Notes under the pieces: model-generated
The model's database searches: none
What the model saw: the letters and a program-made list of their open reading frames with translations, nothing else
What the model was told of the DNA's origin: nothing
NCBI GenBank assembly: GCA_945868435.1
Contig: CAMBLG010000010.1
Location: forward strand, 1-64,000
Direction: 5' to 3'
From: an uncultured Lachnospiraceae bacterium
GTDB lineage: Bacteria; Bacillota; Clostridia; Lachnospirales; Lachnospiraceae
Length of the DNA: 64,000 nt
Position numbers and translations under genes: made by a program
Part shown: in pieces, positions 14,155-39,200 of the stretch
Layout: the number at the start of each line of letters is the position of its first letter
Numbering within the stretch: the stretch's first letter is position 1

Positions 14155-14178
14155 AGGAATCATGGCAGAACATTCTTG

Positions 14179-14207
14179 TCGTATAGGAGACGAAGTTTCC
14201 TATACGA
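14179..14207. repeat. Palindrome copy A (TCGTATAGGA family)
   Basis: TCGTATAGGA at 14179–14188 and its exact complement TCCTATACGA at 14198–14207 form a hairpin. A close relative occurs at 15977–16016, so the two copies bracket the ppk2 gene. Confidence 0.75.
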
Positions 14208-14211
14208 TAAG

Positions 14212-14243
14212 AAAGCCCCGTCGGCATATACCGATGGGGCTTT
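14212..14243. terminator. Bidirectional terminator between the MerR-type gene and ppk2
   Basis: AAAGCCCC-GTCGG / CCGAT-GGGGCTTT stem between convergent genes, with A/T runs on both sides, so it can serve both strands. Confidence 0.85.
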
Positions 14244-15976: not shown

Positions 15977-16016
15977 TTTTTATCGTATAGGAAAGCAATT
16001 TCCTATACGATAAAAA
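15977..16016. repeat. Palindrome copy B (TCGTATAGGA family)
   Basis: A perfect 18-bp stem, TTTTTATCGTATAGGAAA with its complement, around a GCAA tetraloop. The T-run and A-run at its ends would allow termination in either direction. It shares the TCGTATAGGA core with copy A at 14179. Confidence 0.85.
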
Positions 16017-35586: not shown

Positions 35587-36116
35587 CCGGAAGCACACAG
35601 CCCTGTCAGGAACAAACTGGCAAGAATTCCGGCCACGGTAGCCACCAGCGCGCCTGCCAGTGTATACCGCGTTTTCTTGACTTTTACGGACATGAAATAT
35701 ATGGACATCGTGTAAAAAATCGTCTCTGTGCTGCTCAGCATGATGGAGGCTGCGATTCCCACATAGGAGTCGGTTCCATGGGTTTTATACAGGTCCAAAA
35801 GCAGCCCCGTTGCCGCTGACGAGGAGAACATCTTGACAATTGCAATCGGCAGAAGCTCCGCGGGAAATCCGGTGTACTCCATGGCTTTTCCCAGAAGTCC
35901 CGACACAAAATCCAGAAAACCCGATGCGCGCAAAATGCCCACTGCCACCATTAATCCGATGAGCGTCGGCATGATCTCTATCACCGTACGCACACCGCTT
36001 TTGGCTCCATCCAGGAAATCTTCATACACCTGCTGCCGCCGGGACAGACCTGTTCCCACGATATACAATACAAGAAACGGAATAATTGCCTCCGAAAGAT
36101 AGAGAATGACCTTCAT
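35583..36116 (-). CDS. spmB: Spore maturation protein B
   Basis: 177 aa integral membrane protein with Gate/nucleoside-recognition-like helices (EIMPTLIGLMVAVGILRASG, then PIAIVKMFSSSAATGLLLDL). With SpmA it supports spore core dehydration and heat resistance. It follows spmA with a 42-bp gap that contains a dispersed 21-nt repeat. Start has GGGAGGAG upstream. Confidence 0.92.
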   Translation of the reverse strand: MKVILYLSEAIIPFLVLYIVGTGLSRRQQVYEDFLDGAKSGVRTVIEIMPTLIGLMVAVGILRASGFLDFVSGLLGKAMEYTGFPAELLPIAIVKMFSSSAATGLLLDLYKTHGTDSYVGIAASIMLSSTETIFYTMSIYFMSVKVKKTRYTLAGALVATVAGILASLFLTGLCASG

Positions 36117-36158
36117 GAACTCCTCCCGTTTACCGGTTTCTGACTTGTGACTCTTGTA

Positions 36159-36755
36159 TCAATGTATTCGTTTCCACTTACGGATAGAACACAGATGCCG
36201 CAGTTTGATGAACAGAACGGCCACCCCGGTGGATATGGCGGTTGCGATGATGGCTGGCCCTACGATGGCCGCCGGATTCACCGAGCCGTACTGGCTGCGG
36301 TAGGCGATGATATTGACCGGTATCAGTTGCAGCGAGGAGATATTGAGTATTAAAAAATCGCACATGGCATCGGTTGCTCTGCCATGCTCTGCGTCCAGTT
36401 TTTTCAGTTCTTTCATGGCCGACAGCCCCGCCGGTGTTGCGGCCCAGCCCAGTCCAAGAAAATTCGCCACCATGTTGGTTGCCATATAGGTTCGGGCGGC
36501 GCTGGCTTTCGGCACGGACGGAAAGAGAAAGCTCATAAGCGGATTCAGTTTCCTTGCCGCCTGTTCCACCATACCTGCCCGCTCGGCGATCCGCATGATG
36601 CCCACCCAGAATGCCATCACTCCCGCCATGGTGATGCAGAGCGTGACTGCTTCTTTGGCGGAGGACAGGGCCTGATCCGTCACCGCGTCCAGTCTTCCGG
36701 TAACCGCTCCATAGATTACTCCTATTACGATCATTCCACCCCACAGATAATTCAT
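36159..36755 (-). CDS. spmA: Spore maturation protein A
   Basis: 198 aa integral membrane protein: MNYLWGGMIVIGVIYGAVTG, then ATNMVANFLGLGWAATPAGL and FLILNISSLQLIPVNIIAYR, all SpmA hallmarks. With SpmB it implies the organism makes, or descends from makers of, endospores. The 554-bp fold-back element lies immediately upstream, so its promoter may be inside that element. Confidence 0.93.
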   Translation of the reverse strand: MNYLWGGMIVIGVIYGAVTGRLDAVTDQALSSAKEAVTLCITMAGVMAFWVGIMRIAERAGMVEQAARKLNPLMSFLFPSVPKASAARTYMATNMVANFLGLGWAATPAGLSAMKELKKLDAEHGRATDAMCDFLILNISSLQLIPVNIIAYRSQYGSVNPAAIVGPAIIATAISTGVAVLFIKLRHLCSIRKWKRIH

Positions 36756-37436
36756 ACTCGTCTCCTTCTATCGCTCTTTCGCGATATTTGCGCCCCGCGC
36801 TTCTTATTTCCCTGCAAATATCATTTTATTTTGCGGATTTGCACACAGATCTTCTTACGATTTAGACAGAATCGCTGAGGTTGTTAGCGGCACGCATTTT
36901 GCTGAACTTTCGTGTCCGAAATGCGTGTCGACAATTTCCAGCCGATTGTCCGCCCAAGTGAGAAGGCTAACCCGTTCCTCGAATTTGCCTAAATGGGCGC
37001 CTTCGCAAAGTTGATATGAGCCGCCTTGGACAAAACTCGCTTTGAGTACAACGGAATATCGCCACACTGTGTTGCTCAAACAGTTGCCCTGCGGCGGCAC
37101 ATTTTGTTCATGTGCCCATGTAAGGCAAATGCGAATCACTCTAAGCCGTTCTCACTCTTGGCGAACAATCGGTTGGAAATTGCTCGAGGCTATGGCGGAC
37201 ACGAATCATCGGAAAAGGAAAATGCGTGCTGCAACAACCTCGTGATTCTGGATCCATGAGTAAGAAAGGCTGTGTACAAATACGCAAAGAAAGAAATCCC
37301 CATGCAGGGAAATAAGAAGCGCGGGGCGCAAATATCCACTACAGCATCACTCTATGATGGTCGCCCGGATAATATGCATAAGGGTGGGGCCGCCGCATAC
37401 AATGAATAATAAATCCTGCCAACAGGAGCACTCGTT
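36756..37436. other. 681-bp intergenic region between spmA and the DUF885 gene
   Basis: Almost entirely occupied by the fold-back element at 36783–37336. The remaining 100 bp before the DUF885 gene contain a TACAAT near 37396 that may be a −10 box. No convincing gene was seen. Confidence 0.7.
36783..37336. mobile_element. 554-bp fold-back element with 34-bp perfect terminal inverted repeats
   Basis: The ends 36783–36816 and 37303–37336 are perfect 34-bp inverted repeats (outer end GATATTTGCGCCCCGCGC). Inside, the two arms stay recognisably complementary for about 150–200 bp, with conserved islands such as GAGGTTGTT, CACGCATTTT, CGTGTCCG, CAATTTCCA and CCGATTGT. Short frames from each arm give the related peptides NRLEIVDTHFGHESS (minus, ~36.9 kb) and NRLEIARGYGGHESS (plus, ~37.2 kb). 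No transposase is present and no clear target-site duplication flanks it. It may be a MITE-like or fold-back element, or a large structured RNA. Confidence 0.75.
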
Positions 37437-39200
37437 ATGAAATACCTATCACGAAGCAGAATGTCTGTCCCCAGAAGGTCTCCTGTCCTCGGACTGTCCC
37501 TATTCCTGCTTGCCATATTCGCTGGCCTTGTTTTCCTCATACATGGGCCACTGGGAAAAGGCGGCAGCACCGAATTCAACCACTTTCTCTCAGACACATT
37601 TATTCAGGAGACATCCTCCAATACCATGAATCTGCACTTTACCTTAAGCGATCCTACCTCCGCCGGCATTACTGACTATGATGTAACCTTCGGCGATTAC
37701 TCGGCTGAAGGCCGCAAAAGCAGTCTTCTTGCCACAAAGCAGCTGCGCGAACAACTGGACGACTTTTCCTATCGGTCTCTGACGGAGGATGAGCAGATCG
37801 TCTACGATGTGCTCTCTGATTATCTGGACCGCCAGCTGGCCCTGTCGGACTATCCGCTTTTCGACGAAGTCCTGACACCTTCCTGCGGTGCCACATCCCA
37901 GCTTCCGATCCTTCTCGCAGAATACCGCTTCCATTCCGCACAGGACGTGGAGGACTATCTGGCGCTATTGACCCAGATGGACACCTACTTTGACCAGCTC
38001 CTTGCCTACGAGCAAGAAAAAGCGGATGCCGGGCTCTTCATGTCGGACTACTGCTGCAGAAAAGTCATTGAGAGCTGCGAGGTGTTCACCCTGCATCCCG
38101 ACGACAACTTTCTGATTACAACCTTCGACAACCGGCTTGATCAACTGGAAGGGATATCTGACGGGGATAAGGCGGACTACCGCAAGCGGAATCAGACCGC
38201 CATTGCCGAGCATGTCATTCCTGCTTATCAGAATATTGCCTCCGGTCTCACGAAGCTGATGGGACGCGGCCGTAACGACTGGGGACTGTGCAACTACGAG
38301 GATGGCTGTGCATACTACAGTGCGCTCGTCGCCTACTACACCGGCTGCGATGATACGGTGGAAGAGCTCTTCTCCCAAATCGAAGAAAAACGCACCGCCG
38401 ACCTGGCCGTCTGCTCGTCTCTGCTGTCTGAAAAACCTTCCCTTCTTCTGGAATCCGATTCCGTGACGCTGGATTACCCGGATGAAACTGCCATGGTACA
38501 GGCATTAGAAAATGCGATCACTGCCGATTTCCCCGAAGTTCCTGACAACAATTGGGAACTGGTTCACGTGGACCCGGCGCTTTCCGACTACCTGGCTCCG
38601 GCCTTTTATATTACTGCTCCCATCGACAACTACAAAAGCAATCGCATTTATTTGAACACTGCAGCCAACTATGACAGTCTGGGGCTTTTTACCACGCTTG
38701 CCCACGAGGGCTTTCCGGGCCATCTCTACCAGACAGTCTGCTCCTATGCATACGGCATGAATCCGCTGCACACTCTGCTGAACTATCCGGGCTACACCGA
38801 GGGCTGGGCCACCTATGTGGAGATGCAGTCCTATTATTACGCGGGGCTGGATGAGGATATGGCTTCACTGCTTCAACACAATCAGGCCGTGATGCTCAGT
38901 CTGTACGCCACCTCGGATATTGGTATTCACTATTATGGCTGGGAAAAGGATGAGATGATGAAATTCTGGTCCGGTTACGGCATCACGGATGAAGCCACCG
39001 TGGAAGCGATCACAAATCTGATTCTGGAAGAGCCGGGCAACTACCTCAAATACTATGTGGGCTACATGAAATTTACCCAGCTTCGGGAGGCGTGCGAAGC
39101 AAAACAAAAGAGCGCCTTCGATCCTGTGCAGTTTCACGAGGAAATCATGCGCATCGGACCGGCGCCCTTTGAACTTCTGCAAAAGAAGCTACTAGATTGA
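37437..39200 (+). CDS. DUF885-family membrane-anchored zinc peptidase
   Basis: 587 aa. N-terminal signal anchor (about 17–37) after a basic start, then a large extracytoplasmic DUF885 domain. The metallopeptidase motif is AHEGFPGHLYQ (His–Glu–x3–His, about 421–431), with the second metal Glu region YTEGWATYVEMQ (about 452–463). Such proteins are probable carboxypeptidase-like hydrolases; the substrate is not known. The ATG follows CAGGAGC. It is the only plus-strand gene in this stretch and converges on rsmI, with just 8 bp between them and no clear terminator. Confidence 0.88.
   Translation: MKYLSRSRMSVPRRSPVLGLSLFLLAIFAGLVFLIHGPLGKGGSTEFNHFLSDTFIQETSSNTMNLHFTLSDPTSAGITDYDVTFGDYSAEGRKSSLLATKQLREQLDDFSYRSLTEDEQIVYDVLSDYLDRQLALSDYPLFDEVLTPSCGATSQLPILLAEYRFHSAQDVEDYLALLTQMDTYFDQLLAYEQEKADAGLFMSDYCCRKVIESCEVFTLHPDDNFLITTFDNRLDQLEGISDGDKADYRKRNQTAIAEHVIPAYQNIASGLTKLMGRGRNDWGLCNYEDGCAYYSALVAYYTGCDDTVEELFSQIEEKRTADLAVCSSLLSEKPSLLLESDSVTLDYPDETAMVQALENAITADFPEVPDNNWELVHVDPALSDYLAPAFYITAPIDNYKSNRIYLNTAANYDSLGLFTTLAHEGFPGHLYQTVCSYAYGMNPLHTLLNYPGYTEGWATYVEMQSYYYAGLDEDMASLLQHNQAVMLSLYATSDIGIHYYGWEKDEMMKFWSGYGITDEATVEAITNLILEEPGNYLKYYVGYMKFTQLREACEAKQKSAFDPVQFHEEIMRIGPAPFELLQKKLLD

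Follow-up and report, generated by a model that had tools for sequence, protein, structure and literature searches.

Within a 64,000-nucleotide stretch of DNA from an uncultured Lachnospiraceae bacterium (hereafter the window), a 554-nt segment at 36783-37336 ends in two inverted 34-mers that match perfectly, whereas the arms between them have diverged. What keeps the ends of such an element matched? Perfect terminal repeats are normally read as the recognition sites of an enzyme, and a sequence-only reading of this locus suggested a non-autonomous mobile element or a long structured RNA, with selection or gene conversion acting on the ends.

The perfect ends are confirmed, with arms at 36783-36816 and 37303-37336 that are 34 nt long, 100% complementary and 486 nt apart. 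The 554 nt fold as one long hairpin with an energy of -291.2 kcal/mol, compared with -158.3 (sd 7.2) for 100 shuffles (z -18.5). Divergence of the arms around conserved islands was also borne out: counting the terminal stem, 81% of the positions that align without a gap in the window copy are complementary. The fold-back is the sole ungapped inverted repeat scoring at least 20 within 1.2 kb in 458,068 bases, the runner-up scoring 19; these bases are the window and 20 further stretches of the same genome, and the other seven copies described below are not among them. The parts of the window copy are as follows.

36783..36816, + strand: left terminal stem, 34 bp, private to the window copy; 100% complementary to 37303-37336
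36786..36792, + strand: foot motif ATTTGCG (consensus close to GTTTGCG), which varies at the stem feet of the copies; mirror at 37327-37333
36817..36829, + strand: left linker, partly unpaired, copy-specific (identity 0.36-0.39 over alignment columns 21-60, seven copies)
36830..36982, + strand: core arm 1, outer part, common to the other copies, with compensatory changes
36855..37139, - strand: 94-aa ORF (NRLEIVDTHFGHESS), not regarded as a gene (no Pfam match; frame broken in three of eight copies)
36983..37132, + strand: apex of 150 nt, homologous to sequences in two other genera; the region behind covariance models R1-R3
37026..37259, + strand: 77-aa ORF (NRLEIARGYGGHESS), not regarded as a gene (no Pfam match)
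37133..37288, + strand: core arm 2, outer part, common to the other copies, with compensatory changes
37289..37302, + strand: right linker, partly unpaired, copy-specific (by pairing and the copy alignment)
37303..37336, + strand: right terminal stem, exact reverse complement of the left stem

The anatomy is thus a conserved apex, diverged core arms, a linker (in the window genome), a variable and mostly self-matching base stem, and a short foot motif. The related peptides remarked on earlier, NRLEIVDTHFGHESS and NRLEIARGYGGHESS, are indeed alike, but as a by-product and not as genes: arm 2 read on the + strand almost repeats arm 1 read on the - strand, and one frame therefore appears twice. 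Neither has a Pfam match and the 94-aa frame is interrupted or shortened in three of the eight copies (split in C12, one TAA in C25, residues 1-42 only in C1b), and we rejected both as coding ORFs. Pfam searches of the two neighbours of the window copy returned only a Gate domain (PF07670) and DUF885. One neighbour is putatively spmA, as it was named previously, and the names spoIIAA, ackA and tmcAL used below are likewise putative. The idea that the element carries a promoter for spmA found no support, with no sigma-70-like sites in 36650-37500 against 1.1 expected, albeit in a weak test. Near the window copy three terminator-like sites occur where 0.7 would be expected, and two of these lie within the hairpin.

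The element is not single-copy. A search of the window genome (G000; 2.57 Mb in 37 contigs, 84% complete) recovered eight copies: the window copy, C4:115383, C8:50915, C1:337088 (C1a), C12:44411, C2:111602, C25:10058 and C1:54487 (C1b). All are intergenic and at unrelated sites, as judged by long ORFs and not by annotation; the flanking ORFs are co-directional at six copies and divergent at two, and there is no fixed neighbour or orientation. Arm 1 of C1b is mostly deleted, and this copy is left out of the core pair counts, the apex alignment, the pooled transition:transversion counts and the identity figures. The cores of the other seven differ pairwise by 4.2-16.4% (84-96% identical), with a mean identity of at least 0.73 all through the core, compared with 0.36-0.39 to its left (0.59 at the foot) and 0.36-0.53 to its right. 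The flanks of the apical loop are near-invariant (0.97-1.0), the loop itself less so (0.76), and the linkers are partly unpaired except in C12, where they are largely complementary. The proposed non-autonomous mobile element is therefore upheld as something repeated, dispersed and non-autonomous in appearance, but not in the expected conservation of its ends between copies.

In arm 2 of three copies (C1a, C12 and C2; loci L016, L017 and L018) there is an additional double hairpin of ∼80 nt, always in the same position, which the other copies lack. These three are not mutual nearest relatives by core, and the presence of the hairpin in three of eight copies would suggest either recombination among copies or repeated loss.

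Each of the eight copies has its own terminal stem, with left-versus-right scores of 15-34 within a copy and at most 11 between copies. Exact terminal runs are 34 nt in the window copy and 17, 12, 27, 13, 26, 12 and 23 nt in the other seven, extended by imperfect pairing, and three of the eight stems are clearly imperfect (C8, C25 and C1b, with 22, 23 and 27 matches). The other copies do not carry the terminal 34-mer, which is why DNA searches did not find it there. Copies lacking the 34-mers had been named beforehand as a finding that would count against the mobile or RNA reading; literally that is what we see, yet these copies carry other perfect or imperfect paired ends. What the stems have in common is a foot motif of ∼7 nt close to GTTTGCG: whole stems align better than any of 300 shuffles, although with the motif removed the observed score is reached by 6 of 300 shuffles on the left and 71 of 300 on the right, and any further relation is weak or absent. 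Selection or gene conversion on the ends thus remains apt if it means keeping the two ends of one copy matched, and fails as an account of sameness between copies. Copying of the ends from elsewhere in the genome was considered for the window copy and rejected, as a 27-mer from its stem has no second occurrence in the window genome at up to three mismatches.

These stems bear directly on whether this is an ordinary MITE. Descriptions of prokaryotic MITEs list terminal repeats and direct repeats among the structural features, and for QMITE1 of C. burnetii they give these as the better conserved part (PMC10969869). The hairpin element is like them in being short, non-coding, intergenic, dispersed, hairpin-forming and without a transposase (PMC10969869), and unlike them in its terminal stem, which varies more between copies than any other part while often being perfect within a copy, so that terminal inverted repeats common to the copies are lacking. 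A target-site duplication is seen at one of eight copies (C4, 13 of 14 bp, score 11.5; the best of 56 cross-copy controls scores 9 and the remaining seven copies 3.5-6). The Y1 transposase (PF01797), the only enzyme family sought, gave no match in the 84%-complete genome, with the control positive in 5 of 14 known genomes; the assembly thus shows no sign of the enzyme of an IS200/IS605-type system, although at this completeness its absence is not proved. Were the element an ordinary MITE whose conserved terminal repeat came from an insertion sequence resident in the genome, its size, intergenic sites and hairpin would be accounted for; given repeats that differ between copies, a duplication at one copy in eight and no parent element met with one transposase family sought, we find this barely credible.

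The arms also change together. Compensatory changes, which had been anticipated, are present: the 152 core pairs of the seven copies contain 32 double Watson-Crick cells, 64 one-sided and five double mispaired cells, gapped cells being set aside in all pair counts (10 in the outer stem of G547, below). In the 146 better-aligned pairs there are 29 double Watson-Crick cells, compared with 6.2 on average and at most 19 over all 1854 derangements that swap 3' arms between copies. Distinct double changes in these 146 pairs comprise eight transitions and eight transversions, against 27:6 for single changes (p=0.04); in the inner 125 pairs only, the figures are 4:4 and 21:5 and the difference is not significant (p=0.16). 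Pooled arm mismatches (G-U 53, A-C 48) show no strand asymmetry. Common double transversions suggest that the two sides changed in a single event and not by way of G-U steps, and template switching during DNA replication is a published route to such both-side change (PMC8794818, consulted in part). Paired changes can, however, arise from selection on pairing alone, whether of a DNA hairpin or an RNA.

Relatives were sought in several ways. DNA searches of 98 genomes (the window genome and 97 relatives, 59 of them of the same genus) and protein searches of 391 genomes of the class matched the window genome only; the plasmid search gave no match, and exact-pattern scans gave none in public collections and none in viral contigs. 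One further exact-pattern scan gave four matches in unrelated organisms, a count not far from the one roughly expected by chance. These scans missed true homologues, which only a covariance model found. Model R1, built on the apex, identified copies in two other genera of the family, G547 and G538, with rough E values of 3e-10 to 5e-16. With the new members added, model R3 matched four of 397 family genomes in three of 334 genera: G000, G538 and G547 (at least seven matches each) and G844, a congener of G547 (two matches). A 26-bp match links one G844 copy with six G547 copies but is confined to the element, so no orthologous pair was found; the outer arms of the G844 copies are unconvincing and these copies are omitted from all stem counts. 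Among the 59 same-genus genomes, the whole-genome covariance search covered G040. At the spmA loci of 16 relatives and the ackA loci of 29 relatives in the window's genus, some of them cut by contig ends, R3 found no element, with one 49-nt partial match (E 0.086) at the ackA locus L077. Rfam 15 gave no match at E ≤1 in window positions 36000-38000 and none at E ≤0.1 in six loci.

Several other hairpins were noticed along the way. Two small palindromes in the window have TCGTATAGGA in common within their arms and are perhaps a small palindromic repeat family; the one at 14173-14213 has 19-nt arms matching at 89% around a loop of 3, the one at 15977-16016 has 18-nt arms matching at 100% around a loop of 4. 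The C25 contig of the same genome has a 197-bp fold-back with 19-bp perfect ends, GTAACTATTCAGAACCCCT, that looks like an ordinary MITE (L129:9702-9898). Upstream of ackA-like genes are a hairpin with GTTACTATT ends in another species (L082) and, in three loci of the same genus (L077, L078 and L093), other long hairpins and GGGCGC-type repeats near the place equivalent to that of C1b; R3 found no copy in these three beyond the partial match already given. Copies G538a (L132) and C1b (L020), in different genera, both adjoin a tmcAL-like gene while the genes on the other side differ, and the common neighbour is possibly due to chance.

The G547 copies show the same behavior of the stems on a larger scale. 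Of at least seven copies, two are cut by contig ends (G547c and G547f, omitted from the stem, transition:transversion and stem-distance counts). The five complete copies have terminal stems of 48-63 nt, one perfect (57/57) and the others with few mismatches or small indels, and in all five the left and right arms score 44-57 within a copy and at most 27 between copies. The foot resembles the foot motif of the window genome. The stems of G547 are nevertheless homologous between copies at unrelated sites, with 59-73% identity (27-41% different) compared with 23-38% for shuffles and with core differences of 6-10%, and stem distance does not correlate with core distance (n=10 pairs). In the outer 57 pairs there are 40 distinct double Watson-Crick changes (18 transitions, 22 transversions) against 13 single or mispaired, whereas the 113 core pairs have 10 double against 19 single or mispaired (p=0.0004). 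G538, with at least seven copies, has the same apex and covariation, although its ends are less perfect and identity falls gradually outward. Its outer part has 22 double Watson-Crick, 11 double mispaired and 42 single changes and its inner part 39, five and 34, such that doubles are not enriched at the base. A private near-perfect stem is therefore found in two genera and not in the third. Pooled over the three genomes, doubles comprise 60 transitions and 46 transversions and singles 89 and 32 (p=0.008), with 24 mispaired double changes outside these figures; single changes show a slight excess of G-U (54) over A-C (35; p=0.056). These double and single statistics treat pairs as independent, and the copies are related.

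One reading of the base-weighted pattern is purely mutational, namely that a once-mobile fold-back with no present function has had its arms homogenised by quasipalindrome template switching. The concentration of paired changes at the base in G547 fits it, and template switching is described as both creating and maintaining hairpins (PMC8794818, in part). We nonetheless think it improbable, as it leaves unexplained both the conservation of the apex across genera and the stronger correction at the base than in the core arms.

Evidence for movement comes from an occupied site in G547 and its counterparts. This copy has a terminator on one side and a spoIIAA-like gene on the other. The congeners G870, G844 and G869 have the upstream orthologue (79%, 81% and 64% protein identity) and the terminator, followed by a gap of 72-76 nt to the spoIIAA-like gene; the same gap in G547 is ∼656 nt. 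The three orthologous sites have no element and no palindromic stem, and model R2 (from which C2 was left out), run on twelve loci, matched only at G547's own. In a fifth species, G871, the contig ends ∼50 nt upstream, placing it outside the comparison. The element is thus dispersed, non-coding and multicopy with empty sites, as MITEs are, the empty sites being for this one G547 copy. Dispersal and empty sites argue that the element is mobile. With 67-72% DNA identity over the query genes, these species are only distantly related, so the empty sites give no date for the insertion, and loss of the element from all three may be an alternative to insertion in G547.

The same sites speak to whether the core inserts into pre-existing palindromes, or has its ends copied from the target site. 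The privacy of the end stems in the window genome is what this would predict, but no other inverted repeat scoring at least 20 occurs in the 458 kb surveyed, the three empty sites have no such stem, and G547 already contradicts it: stems that are homologous between unrelated sites came along with the element, not from the target. We regard it as very improbable.

A different alternative is a family of large structured non-coding RNAs, each genome holding several dispersed paralogues, in which the terminal stem is a clamp whose pairing is selected and whose sequence is irrelevant. OLE, ROOL and GOLLD are large ornate bacterial RNAs, and the hairpin element is of their size class and has conserved structure as they do; unlike them, it has no Rfam match, forms one long fold-back and is dispersed and multicopy. 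At the apex, 92.3% of cells are paired across genera compared with 76.6% in shuffles and 32-45% in slid controls, and the covariation score is 0.432 compared with 0.163 for shuffles, with double changes in 24 of 47 pairs. Helix-supporting covariation, as in a structured RNA, is thus present there, in an alignment of 12 sequences (10 distinct, seven of the 12 from one genome) that was fitted to the model and so favors structure, and in which a DNA hairpin would give the same signal. The conserved apex, with its near-invariant loop flanks, and the slight G-U excess would also suit a functional RNA. Against this, there is no promoter-like site near the window copy, neighbours and orientation are not fixed, DNA searches are blank in the 59 same-genus genomes (with whole-genome covariance in G040 only) yet the element is present in other genera, double transversions are common, and the arm mismatches lack strand asymmetry. 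A structured RNA is a possible explanation, though we think it unlikely.

We favor, with middling confidence, an undescribed family of dispersed giant hairpins (∼500-660 nt when complete). Its members are most likely mobile but non-autonomous, depending on an enzyme in trans that recognises their shape, and their arms would be kept complementary by arm-to-arm copying, selection on pairing, or both. This enzyme would know the hairpin by its conserved apex and by a short motif at the foot, which in two genera is close to GTTTGCG, with no fixed terminal repeat. Recognition of shape would leave the sequence of the terminal stem free to drift. The arms would stay complementary as a change in one arm is copied to the other by template switching inside the hairpin, during replication or a move, or as unpaired stems are selected against, or through both. 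More speculatively, and rather doubtful in our estimation, the terminal stem of such a mobile hairpin might be rewritten at each move: in a folded intermediate, one arm would serve as the template for the other, giving every new copy its own perfect stem.

Other known repeats resemble the favored mobile hairpin in part. REP palindromes of the GTAG/CGTC families are 20-40 bp long; their stems measure 6-13 bp and their tag is GTAG or CGTC (PMC3733652). The conserved foot tag and stems with alternative complementary residues are similar, but the hairpin element, at ∼550 nt, has a base stem of ∼25-60 bp as well as a long core and an apex that is conserved, and its foot is close to GTTTGCG or AT-rich. 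Perfect inverted repeats in Nematomorpha mitochondria have arm identity that is regarded as actively maintained, with template switching as one possible mechanism (PMC6649704, in part). The hairpin element shares their perfect arms, although those repeats lie inside coding genes of animal mitochondria and it is dispersed and bacterial. No description of such an element was found among the matches listed in the open-licence literature, and none of the terms sought occurs in a report of new bacterial RNAs (PMC11109978).

In two genera the terminal repeats of this family agree within each copy but not from copy to copy, and are therefore kept matching by some process other than their use as recognition sites. 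If the rewriting of stems at each move were true, terminal repeats would be the record of a copying event and not a recognition sequence. The family adds a conserved apex without an Rfam 15 match, and it offers a natural test bed for weighing compensatory selection against templated copying in the matching of the arms of long hairpins.
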